64,000 bases of DNA from a virus, in IMG/VR virus record IMGVR_UViG_3300045119_000200, positions 1 through 64,000 of that record. One strand, written 5' to 3'. A model generated the notes under the pieces. The model searched no databases. It saw only the letters and a list, made by a program, of their open reading frames with translations, and was not told the DNA's origin. Position 1 is the first letter of the stretch. Each line of letters starts with the position of its first letter. Positions 4,239 through 53,181 of the stretch are shown piece by piece. The translations under genes were made by a program, and so were the position numbers.

Positions 4239-4773
4239 TATATTTGCTACTATTGCTGAGTTCGACTCTAAACGCTATAAACTTTTCTTTATCCTTTCGG
4301 ACGTTCAATCAATTACGATTTCTTCCGTAGTTTATCCGTTGGCAATAGCAATAGGTTTGTTTAAACAGTATATTGCTACGAATACGTTTGGGCACAATCC
4401 CCCTGATATATCCCCTACTTATTGGGTCATTCTCATATTATCGGTGTATTAATCCGGTTCCGTTAAATTCAATGAACTTGCAAGGCGATTATAACAATTG
4501 TTTTATATCTGTTTTCAGCTAAATTTGGCTTACTGTAGGATATTAAACAAAGATTTATAAAACTTAAACCTTTCCTGTTTACGCTTGCTTTAGGGGTTTG
4601 GTACGTGATCGCTGTACTTTAAAAATTGCTTTATCTGTTTTCGATAAATTGTAGTCTCTACTATAGGACAAAGCAATTTACTTTCCATTAAACGGGCTCG
4701 TTTCCCATTCCTAAAGTTTATATTAATGAACTCTTTTCTTACTGGTATTAACCAGTGTTTCAGTTTGTTAAGG

Positions 4774-4781
4774 CAAAGATA
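4774..4781 (-). promoter_or_regulatory. TAnnTTTG-type -7 box
   Basis: Minus-strand TATCTTTG followed by a CCTTAACAAAC start region. The same arrangement (TTAC-TAnnTTTG-CnnnAACAAA) recurs at 5119 and 5463. No gene follows closely, so the product would be an RNA or the leader of the 4016-4228 operon. Confidence 0.45.
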
Positions 4782-4982
4782 TGTAAAAGATTTTACACTC
4801 ACAAACAAAATTTAAAACTTTAACACTTTTTAACATTTGTTGGTTATAATTGTATGCTGTAGCCCTTATATTGCGAGGTCAAGCCAAAAACACTTTATTA
4901 TATTGCTATAATATACACACCTGTATCAAATACAACTCAATTAAGAATTGCGTTTCTCAACTCATACAAACCAGTCAAATTA

Positions 4983-4993
4983 TGACAGTGATT
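4983..4993 (-). promoter_or_regulatory. Orphan AATCACTGTC element, copy 6
   Basis: Minus-strand CAATCACTGTC followed by ATA rather than ATG and then a quick stop (ATA ATT TGA). It looks like the remains of a deleted gene start, or an element acting without a start codon. Confidence 0.45.
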
Positions 4994-5118
4994 GAAGTTT
5001 AGTTTTTAAATGATCGTCTATTCTTTGTCTACCTGATTAAGCAGTTTAGTACTTAATCAACGCTTTGAGCCTAAAGACCTATTTTTATAGTCGCTCAATC
5101 GACTTGTTTTTGTTGGGA

Positions 5119-5126
5119 CAAATGTA
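5119..5126 (-). promoter_or_regulatory. TAnnTTTG-type -7 box
   Basis: Minus-strand TACATTTG followed by TCCCAACAAAAAC, matching the layout of the boxes at 4774 and 5463. It would drive the non-coding stretch that contains the orphan start element. Confidence 0.4.
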
Positions 5127-5181
5127 GTAAAACATTTTGTTAAGTTCCAAATCTAAAAGTGTTAAAGTTTTGTTAAAGTTT

Positions 5182-5421
5182 CTAAAACCCCGTAACTGGT
5201 AGTGTTTCAGCCTTTACTTCTTTTAACTTGTTTTCATAAATCTTTGTTCTTTCATGCCCTTTAACACGTCGTCCTGATACTGTATCAATTAAGTTATATC
5301 TTACTGTTTGGACCTCGGTAACTGTATAGTATTGTTTAGAGGTGCAAGAGGATAAACCAAAAATAATAAGTGCGATTGCTAAAAAGAATCCCGCAAAGAT
5401 TGCTTTGTCTAATGTTTTCAT
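5182..5421 (-). CDS. Predicted lipoprotein
   Basis: 79 residues with a Lys-containing start, a hydrophobic core and an LSSC lipobox (Cys near residue 26), so a membrane-anchored lipoprotein is likely. The mature part is short and charged. Phage lipoproteins of this type can act in superinfection exclusion or lysis, but nothing here decides that. It is preceded by a good Bacteroidota promoter (TATCTTTG at 5463-5470 with TTG about 21 bases further upstream). Confidence 0.6.
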   Translation of the reverse strand: MKTLDKAIFAGFFLAIALIIFGLSSCTSKQYYTVTEVQTVRYNLIDTVSGRRVKGHERTKIYENKLKEVKAETLPVTGF

Positions 5422-5462
5422 AGTGTATATGTTTAAAGATCGTTTGTTCTGTTTTGTTGCAG

Positions 5463-5470
5463 CAAAGATA
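5463..5470 (-). promoter_or_regulatory. Promoter of the lipoprotein gene
   Basis: Minus-strand TATCTTTG, with a TTG about 21 bases upstream, fits the Bacteroidota -33/-7 pattern. The GTGACAA repeats at 5495-5526 lie just upstream of the -33 region, the right place for an activator or operator. Confidence 0.55.
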
Positions 5471-5494
5471 TGTAATGAGAGTGATACAAAACAA

Positions 5495-5514
5495 GTGACA
5501 ATATGGCACGATAT
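5495..5514 (+). repeat. GTGACAA-N-ATGGCACGATAT repeat, copy 1
   Basis: GTGACAATATGGCACGATAT. It is immediately followed by a half copy (5515-5526, GTGACAACATGG), and a second full copy lies at 5588-5607. Confidence 0.6.
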
Positions 5515-5526
5515 GTGACAACATGG
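5515..5526 (+). repeat. GTGACAA repeat, half copy
   Basis: GTGACAACATGG, sharing the left half of the two full copies. Confidence 0.5.
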
Positions 5527-5587
5527 TTCAAAGGTGCATGAATAGGGGAAATTGGTAATGTGTTAAAATTATGTTAAAGTATAATAT

Positions 5588-5607
5588 GTGACAAAATGGC
5601 ACGATAT
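5588..5607 (+). repeat. GTGACAA-N-ATGGCACGATAT repeat, copy 2
   Basis: GTGACAAAATGGCACGATAT, 19 of 20 bases equal to the copy at 5495. The 93-base period and position in the divergent region suit a regulator-binding site or an initiator-binding iteron. Confidence 0.6.
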
Positions 5608-5849
5608 AAATGAACTAATGTGACAGATAGTCAGTTGAGCCCCGACCAAAGACAGACCAAACAAAATAAATAATTGAGCAAAACAATTGATTAATCAGTA
5701 AGCACACTAATAACATTTATATAACGAACGTTTGTTATTTGATTTTCCCACTGTAAAAAGATATGTTTCATTTTACCGGCCGGTCCGGTTGGGCTTATGT
5801 ATAAACGGTTGGGGAAATTTCAAACATCGGTTCTAATCGGCTTACAAAA

Positions 5850-5869
5850 TTGTTAGTTTCATCTAACAA
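5850..5869. promoter_or_regulatory. TTGTTAG palindrome, copy 1
   Basis: TTGTTAG-TTTCAT-CTAACAA, a 7-bp inverted repeat. It shares its arms with the palindromes at 6661 and 6694 and lies about 330 bases upstream of the sigma-54 promoter at 6198. Confidence 0.55.
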
Positions 5870-6025
5870 AATGTTTTTCGTCGAAGGGGAGTGGGTCGAA
5901 AAAAGTTGATTTCCTTTTGGCACTGGTGGGGGTCATTGTCTACATATACCCTAATCTCCCTAATTTTCTCAAATCGTATTTTGCTTAACCTTAAAAAATT
6001 TTTATAAAATTTACAACCTACCTCT

Positions 6026-6123
6026 GAACCAAACATCCATTTCTTGGGGTGACATTTCTCTCAAAAATCAATCTTCTCTATTCTTTAACCCAATCATACC
6101 AGACAACATATTCAAATCGAAAA
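6026..6123 (+). repeat. Diverged direct repeat, unit 1
   Basis: Begins GAACCAAA, contains GGGGTGACATTTCTCTCA and TCATACC, ends AATCGAAAA. Unit 2 at 6233-6337 has the same blocks in the same order. Confidence 0.5.
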
Positions 6124-6197
6124 ATCCTACCCACGTCATCTAAATCAATTTGATCAACCAGTCATCCTGTAAAATAATTTACAAAAAGTAAAATATT

Positions 6198-6212
6198 TGG
6201 CACAGTGTTTGC
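6198..6212 (+). promoter_or_regulatory. Sigma-54 (RpoN) promoter for the gene at 6372
   Basis: TGGCAC-AGTGT-TTGC matches the -24/-12 consensus TGGCAC-N5-TTGC exactly, with the required GG-N10-GC spacing. Expected transcription start is near 6224, giving a leader of about 150 bases that contains repeat unit 2. The flanking AGTAAAATATT is shared with the second such promoter at 7078. Confidence 0.7.
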
Positions 6213-6232
6213 TCCATCATAAAACATGAGAT

Positions 6233-6337
6233 GAACCAAAACCTCAAACATTAAATTTAAGGGGTAGCATTTCTCTCATACGTCAACTCAAATACATTTC
6301 TAATATATTCATACCGGAAAATAATTTGAATCGAAAA
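6233..6337 (+). repeat. Diverged direct repeat, unit 2
   Basis: Begins GAACCAAA, contains GGGGTAGCATTTCTCTCA and TCATACCGGA, ends AATCGAAAA, parallel to unit 1 at a 207-base offset. It lies within the expected leader of the sigma-54 transcript. Confidence 0.5.
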
Positions 6338-6371
6338 TTTAAAGAAATGTCAACAAAACAATTAAAACAAA

Positions 6372-6656
6372 ATGGAACAATTAGCAAGAACAATTGAATT
6401 ACGTGGTTTGGGTGAACCAATCACAGCAACTGAAGTAAAGAGAACAGGAAAGGTTTGTATGTACTTACGATCAGATAATGTTTACGAAGTCTTCATCGTT
6501 AAAGTTGCCAAAGCAAAGAATTTATTCGGGAAGCAATATGAAGAAAGGGAAGTCTACCCAACCAATGAAGACTTTGGTTCTAATGCTTGGTGCTTTTCGA
6601 AAGAGATCGAACCGGCAGATAGACTTTTTAATAAATTGGTAAACGAAGGAAACTAA
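6372..6656 (+). CDS. Hypothetical early protein
   Basis: 94 residues, no membrane segment, begins MEQLARTIELRGLGEPITA. It has the look of a small beta-rich protein; not recognised. It is the first rightward gene and the only one between the two sigma-54 promoters. The stop is followed at once by two TGTTAGA palindromes. A cluster of A-rich bases, not a Shine-Dalgarno, precedes the ATG. Confidence 0.65.
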   Translation: MEQLARTIELRGLGEPITATEVKRTGKVCMYLRSDNVYEVFIVKVAKAKNLFGKQYEEREVYPTNEDFGSNAWCFSKEIEPADRLFNKLVNEGN

Positions 6657-6660
6657 TAAA

Positions 6661-6680
6661 TTGTTAGACGACTCTAACAA
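6661..6680. promoter_or_regulatory. TTGTTAG palindrome, copy 2
   Basis: TTGTTAGA-CGAC-TCTAACAA, an 8-bp perfect inverted repeat just after the stop of 6372-6656. No T-tract follows, so an operator or enhancer site fits better than a terminator. About 400 bases upstream of the sigma-54 promoter at 7078. Confidence 0.55.
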
Positions 6681-6693
6681 TTAGCTTAAAAAA

Positions 6694-6711
6694 TGTTAGA
6701 CGAGTCTAACA
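6694..6711. promoter_or_regulatory. TTGTTAG palindrome, copy 3
   Basis: TGTTAGA-CGAG-TCTAACA, a near-copy of the palindrome at 6661, centre to centre 32 bases apart, about three helical turns. Confidence 0.55.
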
Positions 6712-6779
6712 ATATAGGCAGACCAGCCAAAGAAAGTAAGCAAAGAAAACCCAGAATAGAAAGTATACACTTCGTGTAA

Positions 6780-7010
6780 TAGGAATTAAATAGATTAGAT
6801 GATTATAATTTTAAATATTATACGGTAAGATTATAATATTACATATAGATTAATTGTATATACTTCTTCTTTAATTCAATACTTCAGAAGTTATAACATA
6901 CTATTCTTTATTATCGTAGAAGTATTATCTAATAACATCTATATACTATAATATTATATAATATAATAATATAAGATAATTATTCTATACATCAATTTGT
7001 ATTGCTTAAT
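6780..7010. other. Extremely AT-rich stretch
   Basis: This stretch is almost entirely A and T, with runs such as ATAATATTATATAATATAATAATATAAG split over 6947-6975 and no open frame of note. It could be a DNA unwinding element of an origin or a bendable spacer between the palindromes and the sigma-54 promoter at 7078. Confidence 0.45.
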
Positions 7011-7077
7011 CAACCTCAACCCCTTTATTGATCAAACTTCCGGCCACTTCAGTAATGAAATTCGGAAGTAAAATATT

Positions 7078-7092
7078 TGGCACGGTCTTTGC
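7078..7092 (+). promoter_or_regulatory. Sigma-54 (RpoN) promoter for the 7118 operon
   Basis: TGGCAC-GGTCT-TTGC, again a full -24/-12 match with GG-N10-GC spacing, followed by CTAAATT. The predicted start near 7104 lies about 14 bases before the ATG at 7118. The 14 bases upstream are the same as at the 6198 promoter. Confidence 0.7.
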
Positions 7093-7117
7093 TAAATTAA
7101 CATTATAAACTTTAAAA

Positions 7118-7306
7118 ATGGAAAACGAGATAAAATATCTTAATAAAGCGATCAAAGAAATCAGAGAAGGTAAGATTCATTATTCTCAAATGACATCTTG
7201 GTCAAAGAATAGAGATGAAGGTTATAATGATGGTTTAGAAGCAGCATCTTTGTATTTAGAAAAGCGAGTAAAGTATTTAAATAAAAGAATTAAAAATGGA
7301 AAATAA
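7118..7306 (+). CDS. Hypothetical early protein
   Basis: 62 residues, highly charged and helical, with Lys-rich ends; not recognised. It is the first gene of the operon behind the second sigma-54 promoter and overlaps the next gene by 11 bases. Confidence 0.6.
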   Translation: MENEIKYLNKAIKEIREGKIHYSQMTSWSKNRDEGYNDGLEAASLYLEKRVKYLNKRIKNGK

Positions 7307-7505
7307 AATATTAAGACTCGGAAATGTAGCTGATGGCTACGGAGCATACGGAATAATACTTGATCAAATATTCTCTGTTGAGAAAGTTGAAGATAATAAA
7401 TTTCGACTACGAGAAGAATGTGACGCTTGGTATTCAAAAGATCTGACCAAAGCAGAATTACTTTTAATGATCGAAGAACTTAAAAACTGGGTAGAAGAAC
7501 AATGA
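7296..7505 (+). CDS. Hypothetical early protein
   Basis: 69 residues beginning MENKILRLGNVADGYGAYG; acidic C-terminal helix. Not recognised. It overlaps 7118-7306 and the recombinase gene (by four bases), so the three are probably translated together. Confidence 0.6.
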   Translation: MENKILRLGNVADGYGAYGIILDQIFSVEKVEDNKFRLREECDAWYSKDLTKAELLLMIEELKNWVEEQ

Positions 7506-8200
7506 AAAAATACATAGCATACTACAGAGTTTCCACAAAAGAACAAGGGAACTCCAACCTTGGTTTATCAGCACAACGACAATCTGTTCAACAGTTTACA
7601 TCCGACGGCCAATTAATTAAAGAATTCCAAGAAGTTGAATCCGGTCGTAAATCAAATAGACCAGTTCTTTTAAAAGCCATTGCTGAAGCAAATAAATTAA
7701 AAGCAACTTTAGTCATTGCTAAATTAGATCGTCTGGCAAGGAATGTTGAATTCGTTTATGCTTTAAAGAATTCCGGAGTAGATTTCATTTGCGCTGATAT
7801 GCCTGATGCAAATTCTTTAACTATTGGAATTATGGCGGTCCTTGCTGAGAATGAAGCTAAAACAACTGCTGAACGAACGAAATCTGCTTTGAATGTAATT
7901 CAGGACAAACTGTCACGTGGCGAAACACATATTTCAAAAACCGGACAAATTGTCACAAAGCTTGGTGGTAATCATAGAATTACTTCTGAAGAAAGAAATA
8001 AAGGATCGGAGATTCTAAAGAATAAAGCGAATAATAATCAAGACAATATTAAAGCTTTCGCTTTCATCAATGCTCTGGTAGAAGCCGGAGATAATTTTAA
8101 AATAATAACTGATAAACTTAATAACGCTGGATTTGTAACTTCCAGAGGAGGAAAGTTTTACGCAGCACAAACAAAAAGAGTTTATGAGCGATTTAAATAA
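7502..8200 (+). CDS. Serine recombinase (resolvase/invertase family)
   Basis: 232 residues. The N-terminal catalytic domain is clear: YYRVSTKEQ near residues 7-15 with the nucleophilic Ser, a conserved Arg-rich helix, and KLDRLAR near 74-80. The C-terminal third is a helical DNA-binding part, shorter than in large serine integrases. Such enzymes cut and rejoin DNA at two sites through a phosphoserine link, giving resolution, inversion or integration. In this phage it could resolve genome multimers, invert a segment or integrate; no att or res pair was found. ATGA overlap with the gene before. Confidence 0.85.
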   Translation: MKKYIAYYRVSTKEQGNSNLGLSAQRQSVQQFTSDGQLIKEFQEVESGRKSNRPVLLKAIAEANKLKATLVIAKLDRLARNVEFVYALKNSGVDFICADMPDANSLTIGIMAVLAENEAKTTAERTKSALNVIQDKLSRGETHISKTGQIVTKLGGNHRITSEERNKGSEILKNKANNNQDNIKAFAFINALVEAGDNFKIITDKLNNAGFVTSRGGKFYAAQTKRVYERFK

Positions 8201-8525
8201 AGAACCAATAGAGATCAAGGATCAAGAAGGAAAGATAATCGGATGGATTGATTTCGATGAATGGAATCTTGAAAAAGCTTGGTTGCAGAAGAGACAGGAT
8301 GAATGGTTGGAAGGATGTTTGTTCGGTTTCCCTGAAGCAACTGAAGAAGAGAAATATATGCGAGGTATCTCCGGAGTAATCACCAAAGAAAGAGGTTTGG
8401 TATTCTGGCATGACGATGGAAAGTTCTATGAGCCGGAAATCGAATACCCTGCATTGAAAATCCCTTTGACTGAAATAACTGAGAAATTAACAGTAATACG
8501 AGGGGCCACAAGCTTCGATTTTTAA
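8184..8525 (+). CDS. Hypothetical protein
   Basis: 113 residues, acidic, Trp-rich, no membrane segment. Not recognised. It overlaps the end of the recombinase gene by 17 bases and is followed two bases later by 8527-8844. Confidence 0.6.
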   Translation: MSDLNKEPIEIKDQEGKIIGWIDFDEWNLEKAWLQKRQDEWLEGCLFGFPEATEEEKYMRGISGVITKERGLVFWHDDGKFYEPEIEYPALKIPLTEITEKLTVIRGATSFDF

Positions 8526-8526
8526 T

Positions 8527-8844
8527 ATGGGAGAAATAGCAGATTACTACAGAACTTGGGAGCAGGATGAAGATAGCTTCGTCGGACAAGAAAATAAAAT
8601 TCCAAGAGAAAAAATGGAGTCTATGTTCAATCCAAATTGGGTGACGTTACATGGACCTATTTGGATTACAGGCACTTTGAAAAGAATTCCGATACATAAC
8701 ATGACAACAAAACATATTCTTCATACAATACGCGCATGGTTAGGTTTAGGTAAAACAACTCCACCAGAAGGATGGTGTGGCGGAAAAGATATATGGCTTG
8801 ATTTATTAACAGAAGAATTATTAAGAAGGGATAAATTACGATGA
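8527..8844 (+). CDS. Hypothetical protein
   Basis: 105 residues, soluble, Trp-rich with an IPIHNMTTKHILHTIRAW segment. The His- and Trp-rich middle recalls a small phage protein family of unknown role; I cannot name it. It overlaps the next gene by four bases (ATGA). Confidence 0.6.
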   Translation: MGEIADYYRTWEQDEDSFVGQENKIPREKMESMFNPNWVTLHGPIWITGTLKRIPIHNMTTKHILHTIRAWLGLGKTTPPEGWCGGKDIWLDLLTEELLRRDKLR

Positions 8845-9209
8845 TAGGATTAGGAATAACAAGAATAGTTCTAATTGTTGGAAATTATGCTTATAAATTT
8901 CCAACAATAATTTATGGGATGAAGAATTTTTTAAATGGGTGTTATTCAAATTGGGCTGAAAGAAAATTTAATAAAGATTTTAAATCAGCTAATTTTGAAG
9001 AAAATATGATTGATTATGTTGCGCCATCAATATTTTGCAGTTGGTTTGGTTTAATACAAATACAGAAAAGATGTGATGTATTAACAGAAGAACTATCTAA
9101 CGAAGAAAAAATATTTTTTAATCCCGTTAGTGGCGGTGATAATAAGAAAGAAAATTTTGGTTTTTATATGGGTAAAAAAGTATGTTTAGATTATGGACAA
9201 AATGTATAA
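8841..9209 (+). CDS. Hypothetical protein with a kinase-like N-terminus
   Basis: 122 residues. The start (GLGITR..VLIVGNYAYKFP) resembles the glycine loop and conserved Lys of a protein-kinase N-lobe, a likeness seen in a common phage protein family. No catalytic HRD or DFG follows, so kinase activity is unlikely. Its codon use is more AT-rich than its neighbours. Embedded in the early operon. Confidence 0.55.
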   Translation: MIGLGITRIVLIVGNYAYKFPTIIYGMKNFLNGCYSNWAERKFNKDFKSANFEENMIDYVAPSIFCSWFGLIQIQKRCDVLTEELSNEEKIFFNPVSGGDNKKENFGFYMGKKVCLDYGQNV

Positions 9210-9824: not shown

Positions 9825-9833
9825 ATTTTTTTG

Positions 9834-9841
9834 TATCTTTG
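9834..9841 (+). promoter_or_regulatory. TAnnTTTG promoter box
   Basis: TTTTTTTGTATCTTTGC: TATCTTTG 20 bases before the ATG at 9862. Confidence 0.55.
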
Positions 9842-16338: not shown

Positions 16339-16920
16339 ATGAAGTCGGTTAATTTTATAATCGTTGAGGTTGAAGAAGCTTATAACAACGAAAAGAAAAT
16401 CGGTGACGTTTCAATTGTAGTAAATTCAACTATTGAAAGCGTAGAACATATTAATCGTATAGCAAAAGTAATTACGTCACCCTCTTTCACCCCGTTGAAG
16501 GAAGGTGACGAAGTTATTATACACCATAACATATGTAGATTGAGAAACGGAACCAAAGGTGGGAAAGTACAAAGTGATTATCATATCGAAGGAAACAAAT
16601 ATTTTGTTCCATTGACTGAAGTATTTATGTACAGACGAGATGGCGATTGGATCGCACTCGCCCCATATTGTTTCGTCGAACCAATCAAGGATGAAACCAA
16701 AATGATTGGATCAATTATCGTGCCAAACTCCGGAGAAACTCATAAAGGTATGATCTCACATGAAGGGATCATGAAATATTCAAATCCTGAATTAAATGAA
16801 TACGGGATAAACAATGACGATCATATCTCGTTTTCTGAAGATTCAGAATATGAATTTATGATTGACGGAAAAATATATTACAAGATGGCTACTAGAGACA
16901 TTCTTGGAAAATTCGATTAA
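16339..16920 (+). CDS. Tandem GroES-fold protein
   Basis: 193 residues that I read as two co-chaperonin-like halves. Half one (about 4-103): NFIIVEVEEA, IAKVITSP, a LKEGDEVIIHHN strand, then a KYFVPLTEVFMY end. Half two (about 104-193): YCFVEPI, GSIIVPNSG for the mobile-loop edge, and KIYYKMATRDILGKF as the last strands. This mirrors the VLVxP...GGIIIP...GDxVxF...EYLIxxEEDIL order of GroES. A role in capsid-protein folding with host GroEL, as for T4 gp31, is inference. It sits just before the terminase gene. Confidence 0.5.
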   Translation: MKSVNFIIVEVEEAYNNEKKIGDVSIVVNSTIESVEHINRIAKVITSPSFTPLKEGDEVIIHHNICRLRNGTKGGKVQSDYHIEGNKYFVPLTEVFMYRRDGDWIALAPYCFVEPIKDETKMIGSIIVPNSGETHKGMISHEGIMKYSNPELNEYGINNDDHISFSEDSEYEFMIDGKIYYKMATRDILGKFD

Positions 16921-16921
16921 C

Positions 16922-19780
16922 ATGGAACATTTAAGTGAACATATTGAGAGTAGTATAGTTACGCTGCTCGAAGGTCTTGACCTTGATATACAAATTGACT
17001 ACAGAATTCAGAATGATAGTGAGTATAAGAACTTTATCGGTTCTCATATAAATATTGAACTGAAGACCAGAGCCAAGTTGAAAGGTAAGATCAAAAACGT
17101 GGAGGATAAGGAATTCACCATAACATATTTCGTTGTTAACGGGAAGGAAAGAACTCTTACGGAAAAGACAATAAAGTTCACCTCTGTTAAAACAGCCAGA
17201 GTATTCGATGAAGAATCAAGTATCTTGGAACCTGATAAAATGAAACAGATTATCGGTTCCAAGATTTCTTCGTTTAAATCAATCACGACAATCCTTAATC
17301 GTTGGGCCTCTTCTCCGAATGCACCAAGTAAGGATAAAGTGAGATATTATATGGATAAAATAGTTGAGTCCGGTGAAAAAGCTTTACAGTTCTTATACAA
17401 AGCTTTGTCTCACGATATTGACTATGATTCTATTGAAATCCATAAGATTCAAAATGCTGCCGCTGCAAAGCCTCTTATCTTAGATGCTATTTACGATCTG
17501 GATTCAAATATCAAAGAGATCAAAGAAAAGCTGCTGTCGGATGATATGACATTGGTTGAACGAGAATTCAGACTGGGTTATCCAGAACGTTTTGCTAAAG
17601 GTGAATTTTTCCCAATAGGGAATTACTTCAAAGACTGGTATGATGCCCCTACAGATTCCGTAAAAATCTGTCCATTTGGTACAAGTGGGCAATCCATAGT
17701 CTTAGAAGATTTGAGGATCATTTTACCGAAAAAGCCAAGGAATAAAAAAGAGATTCTTTTCTCTGATTTTCCGAAGAAAGAACAGTATTGGAGACGACCA
17801 GAAATCCCCGATACAATCACACCTGATAATCAGGATCAATGGGATGATTTCATTAAAGAAGAATTCAGACGTAGACGAGAAGGAATTTGGTTCATGAATA
17901 ACGGTGAAGCTGTTTATTTAACAGGGAATCATTATTATGCTTTGACCCATTGTAAGATGTTGGATACCGGTGGTTACATGGATTATCGTGAAGCACAGAG
18001 AGATATTTTTTATCATGTTCAGGCGTGTATCGTTGATGATCGTTGTCTTGGACAACTGTTTGTTAAATCAAGACGTACAGGATTTACATACATCATTCTT
18101 TGTTGTTTCGCTAATGACTCAACTGGTATGAGAAATAAAAACTTTGGAATCACTTCTAAATCTGACGATGATGCTAAAAAAGCGTTTATCAAATTCAGAT
18201 ATATGTTGTTGAACCTTCCTTTCTATTTCATTCCGTTGATTAAAGGTAAAGTCGATTCTCCGAAAGAGTTTGAGTTTGGGGCTCCAATGAGCAACTCTCG
18301 TGCTACAAAGAAAAGTAAAACTTTCGTATTAGATGATTATCTGAATAATCTTATTGACTATGAGCCAACTAAAAATGACTCTTATGATGGTCAAGCGTTA
18401 TTCCGTTATCTTGGAGATGAAGCAGGGAAGTGGAAAAAACCAATGGATTATATTCAGCATTTTGGTCAGATCTCTCCGACCATGAACCAAGGTGGTAGAA
18501 TCGTTGGTAAATCATTTATCGGATCAACTGTAGGTGCAATGAACCAAGGTGGATCTCAGTTTAAAGAAATGTGGAATTCTTCTGATGTTAAGCAGAGAGA
18601 TCCGGTTACAAGAATGACAGGTTCAGGATTGTACAGATTCTTTTTGGCAGCACAGAAAAACATGGAGGAGTTCACAGACAAATATGGAAAATGTCATGAA
18701 ATTGTTCCAGATGTTCCTACTTATAATGTAGCCGGCAAACTTATCAGAGTTGGTGCTATTCATTATTTGGAATCTCAGGAAGGTATGAAAAAGAAGATCT
18801 CAGATAAATCTCTTAACGAACAGTACAGAGCGTATCCAAGAACAATCGATCATGCTTTCCGTGATGAAGCAAATGAGTGTGTTTACAACATCACCAAGCT
18901 TTATGAACAAATGGAACACAATGATTTGATGGAAGAAAACCAGAAATATATCATTGGTAATTTCGAATGGGTCAATGAAATTGATGGAGATGTGTTCTTC
19001 GCTCCGAATCCAAATGGTAGATTTAAGGTAGCGTGGTTACCTTCAGCTATTGATGGAACAGAAGGATTGGCAAACAGAGTTGAGCAAAGAGGAGATAAAT
19101 TCTATCCTTTGAACTTAGAATGCGTGAGATTTGGTTGTGACCCTTTCTCATTGAAATCCACACATGGAGAAGGATCTAAAGGTGCTATTCATGGAAAAAC
19201 AATTCTGATTCCGGAAGGAGGGGCACCAAGTAATGAATTCGTTATTGAATATATTGCTCGTCCACAGGATGAAACGATTTTCTTCGAAGACGTTATTAAA
19301 GTGATCAGATATTACGGGGCACCAATCCTTGTTGAATCAAACAGAATCGATTTACTTCGTCATATGAGAAACAGAGGTTATAGACCGTTTGCGATGAATA
19401 GATTAGATAAACCACTTAATAAATTGAATCCAAACGAATTGGAATATGGTGGTCAAACAATGTCTGGAAAAGATATTCTTGATTCACATATGAACGGTAT
19501 TGGAGTTTGGATTGAAAAATATGTTGGATTATCTGTGACTGAGGAATTTAGATTAGAAGGAGAAATGGGAAATATGCCTTTCAACGAAACGTTAAAAGAC
19601 TGGTTGAAATTCGATCCGGATAATAGAACTAAGTACGATGCTACTATTTCAAGCGGTTTGGCAATAATGGCCTGTTCCACTGAAAAGTACAAAGGTGTCA
19701 AAAAAGAACGTAAGCCAAAAATCGTTAACTTTGTAAAAAAATTCAACAATAACGGAAACGTCGGACAAAGAATAAATTAA
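16922..19780 (+). CDS. terL: Terminase large subunit
   Basis: 952 residues from the ATG at 16922; a longer frame from 16862 would overlap the gene before by 59 bases. The ATPase part has KSRRTGFTY (about 382-390) in the place of Walker A and RYLGDEAGK (about 494-502) as Walker B. The nuclease part has FGCDPF (near 738) and a late KYDATISSG (near 905) with the acidic metal ligands. The long N-terminal extension (about 350 residues) is usual for crAss-like terminases. It pumps DNA into the prohead and cuts it. Confidence 0.9.
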   Translation: MEHLSEHIESSIVTLLEGLDLDIQIDYRIQNDSEYKNFIGSHINIELKTRAKLKGKIKNVEDKEFTITYFVVNGKERTLTEKTIKFTSVKTARVFDEESSILEPDKMKQIIGSKISSFKSITTILNRWASSPNAPSKDKVRYYMDKIVESGEKALQFLYKALSHDIDYDSIEIHKIQNAAAAKPLILDAIYDLDSNIKEIKEKLLSDDMTLVEREFRLGYPERFAKGEFFPIGNYFKDWYDAPTDSVKICPFGTSGQSIVLEDLRIILPKKPRNKKEILFSDFPKKEQYWRRPEIPDTITPDNQDQWDDFIKEEFRRRREGIWFMNNGEAVYLTGNHYYALTHCKMLDTGGYMDYREAQRDIFYHVQACIVDDRCLGQLFVKSRRTGFTYIILCCFANDSTGMRNKNFGITSKSDDDAKKAFIKFRYMLLNLPFYFIPLIKGKVDSPKEFEFGAPMSNSRATKKSKTFVLDDYLNNLIDYEPTKNDSYDGQALFRYLGDEAGKWKKPMDYIQHFGQISPTMNQGGRIVGKSFIGSTVGAMNQGGSQFKEMWNSSDVKQRDPVTRMTGSGLYRFFLAAQKNMEEFTDKYGKCHEIVPDVPTYNVAGKLIRVGAIHYLESQEGMKKKISDKSLNEQYRAYPRTIDHAFRDEANECVYNITKLYEQMEHNDLMEENQKYIIGNFEWVNEIDGDVFFAPNPNGRFKVAWLPSAIDGTEGLANRVEQRGDKFYPLNLECVRFGCDPFSLKSTHGEGSKGAIHGKTILIPEGGAPSNEFVIEYIARPQDETIFFEDVIKVIRYYGAPILVESNRIDLLRHMRNRGYRPFAMNRLDKPLNKLNPNELEYGGQTMSGKDILDSHMNGIGVWIEKYVGLSVTEEFRLEGEMGNMPFNETLKDWLKFDPDNRTKYDATISSGLAIMACSTEKYKGVKKERKPKIVNFVKKFNNNGNVGQRIN

Positions 19781-52053: not shown

Positions 52054-53181
52054 TTATTTAACACCGAAGCCTATTGCTCTTCGTTCTTTTTGAGACGTGC
52101 TGGCTCCATCGTTCATATTGAAGATTTCAGCAACTGTCATTGGCTTATTAATTTCCCCTTCGATATTGTTTTCTTCAGCGATTCTTTTTGCTTTTTCAAT
52201 ATCCAGAGGACCAAAATCATATTCAGCGATCAATCTACCTTTTCTTAATAAAGCTGAGTCGATATTTTCGATGTCAGCATTAAATGTAGCGATGATCTGA
52301 AGTTCTAAAACATCGGAGAGAATACCATCGGAGAGATTCAAAAGTGATGAAATCACATTGTTTCCTTCTTTCCTGTCTTTCAAATATGTCTCACAATCTT
52401 CTAAAACTAAAACTGATCCTTTGTTCTCAATAAGCCCACTGATAAAGGAAGGATCGTCTAAATGAGCAATCATGCTCTGAGTGATGTAGATGAATTTTTT
52501 ATCCGGAACATCAATAGTAAGATTTTTGATCAAATTGGTTTTCCCTGTTCCGGCTGCTCCATGAAATAAAATAATTCCTTTCCCTTCTTCACCTGTTTTT
52601 CTCAATGTTTCAACAACATGATCATAAACTGGTCTGAAATCATCATTGTACATTTTATCAATGTCAATCGCTAAAGGTTTGATTTTCTTTCTTTTGAATT
52701 CAAATCCACTCATTGTTTTAAGAACAACGAAAATCACAGCTTCATCTCCTTTCTGCTGAAGAAAACAGTCATTCAGTTCTTTGGTCATTTTGTTACAAAG
52801 AGCCATGTCTTCTCCATCGAAATACACGTAATCAAGTCTGAAATCACCAGATTTAAAATCATATTTTGTCGTTGCATCATCTTCACTGATGTTCGGACTG
52901 ATCAGAATATAATAATCGTGTTTCTTACTTTTGTAACATTGTTGATAAGCAAAGAATTCTTTTTCTTGTCTGTAATGTTCGAAATAAACAATGTTATCGA
53001 CAACTTCAAAATGTTTGAAAAACTTTTCTTTAATTGATAACACTCTTTCATTTACCGGAAGCTGTCTCAGCCCCAAGCTACTAAAAATATTATAAGGACC
53101 AGCTGGAACGCCTGATACAATAACTGTATCTCGATTACCATCTAAAAGATGTTTTGCTCCTCTATCATATTCTATTTTCAT
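52054..53181 (-). CDS. AAA+ ATPase
   Basis: 375 residues. Residues about 1-185 are an unknown domain. The ATPase follows: Walker A GAAGTGKTN (about 206-214), Walker B SVLVLEDCE (about 254-262), sensor 1 IATFNAD, and an arginine-finger LLRKGRL. The order recalls BCS1-like AAA proteins. It lies directly between the polymerase and endonuclease genes, so a role in replication such as loading or remodelling is likely but inferred. Confidence 0.7.
   Translation of the reverse strand: MKIEYDRGAKHLLDGNRDTVIVSGVPAGPYNIFSSLGLRQLPVNERVLSIKEKFFKHFEVVDNIVYFEHYRQEKEFFAYQQCYKSKKHDYYILISPNISEDDATTKYDFKSGDFRLDYVYFDGEDMALCNKMTKELNDCFLQQKGDEAVIFVVLKTMSGFEFKRKKIKPLAIDIDKMYNDDFRPVYDHVVETLRKTGEEGKGIILFHGAAGTGKTNLIKNLTIDVPDKKFIYITQSMIAHLDDPSFISGLIENKGSVLVLEDCETYLKDRKEGNNVISSLLNLSDGILSDVLELQIIATFNADIENIDSALLRKGRLIAEYDFGPLDIEKAKRIAEENNIEGEINKPMTVAEIFNMNDGASTSQKERRAIGFGVK

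Follow-up and report, generated by a model that had tools for sequence, protein, structure and literature searches.

Two short elements in a phage genome are probably promoters for the host sigma-54 RNA polymerase, placed ahead of a small cassette of genes with a serine recombinase. The window analysed here covers 64 kb of a virus record that is 72,812 bp long. The two elements (P1 and P2) and the cassette genes are given below; L023 is a 17.8-kb contig from the closest relative.

6186..6213, + strand: putative sigma-54 promoter P1, a 28-nt repeat with TGGCAC-N5-TTGC at 6198-6212; predicted start about 6224
6372..6656, + strand: 94-aa ORF, first gene after P1; assigned to no known family and without phage relatives
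7066..7093, + strand: putative sigma-54 promoter P2, the same 28-nt repeat with the -24/-12 element at 7078-7092; predicted start about 7104
7118..7306, + strand: 62-aa ORF, first gene after P2; a 47% identical homolog in L023 lies behind the same promoter
7296..7505, + strand: 69-aa ORF of the P2 operon; L023 lacks it at this position
7502..8200, + strand: small serine recombinase (Resolvase PF00239 / DNA invertase); 62% identical in L023 and about 35% in phi38:1, where its location is similar
8184..8525, + strand: 113-aa ORF, 59% in L023; a conserved part of the cassette

Both elements have GG at -24 and GC at -12 with the exact GG-N10-GC spacing. A preliminary description had placed two such elements at these coordinates, before the first rightward genes (6372 and 7118), and was right on both points. 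The shared upstream sequence that it noticed belongs to a 28-nt direct repeat, AAGTAAAATATTTGGCAC[A/G]GT[G/C]TTTGCT, which holds each element; the two copies are 26/28 identical and 880 bp apart. P1 and P2 are the only exact matches to TGGCAC-N5-TTGC in the whole 72,812-bp record, and the reversed-pattern control gave none. Under a first-order Markov model, 64 kb should hold 0.04 exact matches, counting both strands, and 0.0006 matches to the extended form TTTGGCAC-N4-TTTGCT. Either element alone is far above chance. The claim that the presence of two copies makes chance very unlikely stands only in this sense. As both are one duplicated 28-mer, they are not independent evidence, and their likeness is due to common ancestry or common constraint. 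The predicted leader of P2 is 14 nt (to ATG 7118) and that of P1 about 148 nt (to ATG 6372), both on the same strand as the element. The P1 leader is unusually long, and we counted this against the sigma-54 reading.

The ends of the record share a 32-bp direct repeat (1-32 and 72781-72812). Therefore, the phage genome is probably complete and circular or circularly permuted, though the record is classed as linear. The terminase gene TerL (16862-19780) is 44-49% identical to those of the Flavobacterium elemo phages, Maribacter phage Panino and Cellulophaga phi38:1, and 79% to that of L023. Another gene typical of the group lies next to it.

16339-16920: GroES-like co-chaperonin Cpn10 gene (PF00166), directly before TerL; annotated likewise in several relatives

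The phage has a homologous TerL, a co-chaperonin gene upstream of it and a 72.8-kb record (about 60-77 kb for the group). By TerL homology, Cpn10 neighbour and size, it would be a flavophage related to phi38:1 (Pervagoviridae) and Elemovirus. It appears to be a virus of Bacteroidota bacteria (Flavobacterium group). Most genes fall into two modules. The leftward one, with replication and nucleotide genes, extends from 5421 through the record ends to about 44 kb. The rightward one, from 6372 to 43.4 kb, comprises small genes, the recombinase, lysis genes and structural genes. Between the two modules is a divergent control region (5422-6371). We also observed a leader, AATCACTGTC or ATCACTGTC, directly 5′ of the ATG in leftward genes at 39, 2018, 2343, 3395 and 4238 (- strand) and at record positions 70784 and 71968; it is a possible translation or regulatory signal common to these genes. 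At 5491-5599, adjoining the leftward promoter, there are three direct repeats GTGACAA-N-ATGG, two of them followed by CACGATAT, in an operator-like arrangement.

We compared the elements with a host matrix derived from groES-upstream DNA of 30 Flavobacteriaceae loci. The matrix of all ten groES-near GG-N10-GC matches was contaminated, so seven cleaned sites were used. They lie 65-76 nt 5′ of the Cpn10 match, and several have the form TTGGCACATTTTT[A/G]GC. With this matrix, 6198 ranked first and 7078 second among all phage positions on both strands, and the L023 element ranked first in its contig. The sigma-54 DNA-binding domain (PF04552) was present in 41/41 sampled Flavobacteriaceae, the likely host family. 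The same genomes had 3-15 matches each to the sigma-54 activator domain Sigma54_activat (PF00158). In the phage record, no PF00158 activator was found. An AAA protein at 52054-53181 was considered for this role and rejected, as it matches PF00004, not PF00158. The loose motif TGGCACN5TTGC occurred 151 times in the 41 genomes, compared with 82 times for the reversed pattern (1.8-fold). The strict motif was rejected as a broad host signature, since it was found in only seven of about 208 Bacteroidota genomes, a number about equal to the control. Its strictness is therefore unusual even in hosts. Six of the seven matches stood before apparent gene starts.

L023 has kept TTTGGCACACTCTTTGCT 25 nt before a 63-aa ORF, the homolog of the 62-aa ORF, and the recombinase and the 113-aa ORF follow in the same order. 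Its upstream DNA aligns poorly with that of the phage apart from the element itself. L023 is the sole relative that covers P2; its contig ends before P1, for which no relative has the corresponding stretch. Homologs of the 62-aa and 113-aa genes were found only in L023. A search of related genomes for TGGCAC-N5-TTGC had been proposed in the preliminary description. When run, it succeeded in L023, at the same place, and gave no exact element in the more distant relatives phi38:1, elemo, Panino, phi19:3, phi18:3 and Gundel. One exact match in another distant relative (G005/L010) was treated as chance, as inspection of the surrounding sequence by eye revealed no cassette. The phi38:1 recombinase operon carries a sigma-A box, TATCTTTG, in place of the sigma-54 element, and L023 has a sigma-A-like box, TATTTTTG, just upstream of its sigma-54 element. 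Together with the lack of the exact element in distant relatives, this implied that the promoter class at this locus varies between lineages.

We accept host sigma-54 promoters as the probable reading because the elements are exact and unique, have the top ranks with the host matrix and are conserved in L023, because RpoN and activators are present in 41/41 Flavobacteriaceae, and because the phage has no activator of its own. The sigma-54 identity claimed at the outset is well supported by the host-derived matrix, the nearest relative and the universal RpoN of the likely host family. How far such promoters would reach depends on the sigma-A-type boxes around them, of which two are important here.

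5463..5470, - strand: sigma-A -7 box TATCTTTG of the leftward module, with upstream TTTG
9834..9841, + strand: first good rightward sigma-A-type box TATCTTTG after the cassette, 28 nt before ATG 9862

On the leftward strand, boxes of the form TATCTTTG or TACATTTG with upstream TTTG are located at 5470, 5126 and 4781. On the + strand, no TAnnTTTG box was found in 4520-8990, so there is none before 6372, 7118 or the recombinase. From 9834 rightward, TAnnTTTG boxes stand 18-42 nt before many genes, many in the extended form TTTTTCGTATCTTTG. The box at 9834..9841 likely marks the end of the cassette. As + strand boxes are absent from 4520-8990 and frequent from 9834, sigma-54 would gate only the cassette, which spans 6372 to about 9.8 kb, and not the whole rightward module. 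The proposal that P1 and P2 control the early genes was unsupported: replication is encoded on the leftward strand, with sigma-A boxes ahead of its genes, and separate sigma-A-type boxes, TATCTTTG, stand before the lysis and structural genes farther to the right. As a separate observation, TTTTTCGTATCTTTG precedes rightward genes at 9827, 10100, 10865, 12194, 12292, 16052, 25792 and 32159 (+ strand), mostly without the -33 TTTG, and also occurs in the relative L003. It may represent a phage-specific sigma-A-type promoter class.

The same boxes bear on the alternative that survives best, in which sigma-A promoters or read-through account for transcription of the cassette, and the sigma-54 elements are weak or decaying, or act as closed-complex roadblocks or repressors. 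The TATTTTTG box of L023 and the use of TATCTTTG by the phi38:1 operon are in its favor. However, the + strand of this phage has no TAnnTTTG box in 4520-8990, and all consensus positions are intact in three elements (two here and one in L023). We consider this alternative unlikely. It is less probable still that the 28-bp repeat only looks like a sigma-54 promoter and in fact serves recombination or protein binding, with the neighbouring serine recombinase as one possible user. The recombinase does adjoin, and the two copies are almost identical along all 28 nt. Nevertheless, the repeat is not a dyad, unlike the usual resolvase and invertase sites, and L023 has kept only the sigma-54 positions, TTTGGCAC....TTTGCT, and has lost the upstream half, AAGTAAAATA. 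The high score with a host-derived matrix also speaks against such a site, as do the recombinase homologs in other viral contigs, none of which has a sigma-54 element upstream. Chance matches in AT-rich DNA, one of them copied by local duplication, are a very improbable source, because even a single exact match is hardly expected and L023 has the element in the matching position, ahead of the homologous gene, although the two copies share 28 nt and hence are not independent.

If P1 and P2 are host sigma-54 promoters, P1 would drive the 94-aa protein, and P2 a small operon of the 62-aa protein, the 69-aa protein, the serine recombinase and the 113-aa protein. Sigma-54 always requires an activator, and the preliminary description was correct to stress this. 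The sigma-54 polymerase would bind P1 and P2 as a closed complex and fire only once a host AAA+ enhancer-binding activator remodels it. The activator would have to come from the host, because the phage encodes none. Transcription from P1 and P2, the identity of the activator and of the signal, the timing and the role of the recombinase are all points that we infer from sequence. Upstream of the promoters, three features might serve as activator sites.

5850..5869, no strand assigned: dyad TTGTTAG-N6-CTAACAA, about 340 bp upstream of P1; possible binding site for an activator or a repressor
6030..6157, + strand: diverged repeat of about 100 nt, at about -70 to -190 of P1, with a second copy downstream at 6245-6370; candidate enhancer-type region
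6661..6712, no strand assigned: two tandem copies of the dyad TTGTTAG-N6-CTAACAA, about 370-410 bp upstream of P2 and just past the stop of the 94-aa ORF

The dyad occurs at 5850, 6661 and 6693 (the last with one mismatch) and nowhere else in the 64 kb at up to one mismatch. The tandem pair, just after the 94-aa ORF, folds as a strong hairpin (fold z-score -5.5) and so could be a terminator. Judged by sequence, the dyad could be an activator site but might just as well be an operator for a repressor or, in the tandem pair, a terminator. We rejected it as a general sigma-54 enhancer: among 80 diverse viral contigs from a search for the dyad, only two had a sigma-54 element at any point in the retrieved sequence. 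In one case, the dyad stands before a repressor-like ORF.

In Flavobacterium psychrophilum, the sigma-54 motif and regulon have been determined experimentally, and the regulon includes GroESL, DnaK, GrpE-DnaJ, Lon, HtpG, ClpB and the gliding operon (PMC9723704). Chaperone genes are enriched for sigma-54 across Flavobacteriia (PMC12316311). In addition, stress genes of Cellulophaga baltica are reported to rise quickly after phi38:1 infection (earlier work cited in PMC13288928). These reports make a stress-triggered cassette plausible, a step that we infer. Control by a host nutrient or stress signal had been suggested; the stress half is likelier and the nutrient half is not favored, given a flavobacterial regulon of proteostasis, envelope stress and gliding (PMC9723704). 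By analogy, heat-shock/proteostasis and envelope stress are likelier signals than nutrients. The activator would most likely take its input from the protein-quality-control/envelope-stress branch, and infection by the phage could itself switch this branch on. We put forward a broader scenario tentatively, giving it somewhat less than an even chance. A lytic-type flavophage may have wired its recombinase cassette into the host sigma-54 proteostasis/envelope-stress regulon, with infection or prior host stress as the trigger, and the locus may have switched between sigma-A and sigma-54 promoter classes among related phages.

We also surveyed viral contigs in IMG/VR. Among the matches listed, the strict motif lay inside ORFs of at least 90 aa in 72/120 cases, compared with 76/86 for the reversed control (Fisher P = 8e-6), and several copies of the motif were present in 15/120 contigs versus 0/120 controls. 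The smaller share of in-ORF matches and the multi-copy contigs indicated that sigma-54-like elements occur in other viral-classified contigs. Also among the matches listed, the viral-classified contigs L058, L081, L116, L137, L045 and L119 have 2-5 copies of TTTGGCAC-N4-TTTGCT, and a palindrome, CTGCCATTTTGGCAG, often follows the element in L058, L081, L116 and L137. Such multi-copy contigs possibly hold sigma-54 arrays.

Our literature search, with most subscription journals outside its reach, turned up no account of a phage with host sigma-54 promoters. If transcription is confirmed, a phage cassette would obey an activator-gated sigma factor of its host and stay silent without an ATP-driven host sensor. 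Because flavobacterial sigma-54 controls heat-shock and envelope-stress genes, this phage offers a direct test of how phages read host stress, and the phi38:1 group, with its sigma-A box at the recombinase operon, is a natural comparison. The phi38:1 operon (gp074-gp075) likewise has a rightward serine recombinase about 10 kb upstream of TerL with a small ORF before it. It differs in its sigma-A TATCTTTG box, and gp074 shows no detectable relationship to the 62-aa ORF. The sigma-54 (SM4) promoters of F. psychrophilum (PMC9723704) are similar in their -24/-12 elements, flavobacterial host group and, for P2, short distance to the gene; however, they serve host chaperone, protease and gliding genes, whereas small phage genes and a serine recombinase follow the predicted starts here. 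In Salmonella, phage biology is also coupled to a sigma-54 activator, through the Gifsy-1 prophage and the RtcR/sigma-54 RNA repair operon. According to the accessible part of that report (PMC9879122), prophage genes influence a host sigma-54 operon, whereas host sigma-54 is proposed here to act on phage promoters. The nearest published concept is the control of Alphaproteobacteria phages by CtrA, termed 'lytic deferment' (PMC9437464), in which a phage control region likewise consists of sites for a host regulator and phage genes follow the state of the host. That system was shown experimentally, in unrelated phages with dense clusters of sites for the CtrA response regulator; the present one, read from sequence, would rely on sigma-54, an AAA+ activator and two core promoters.
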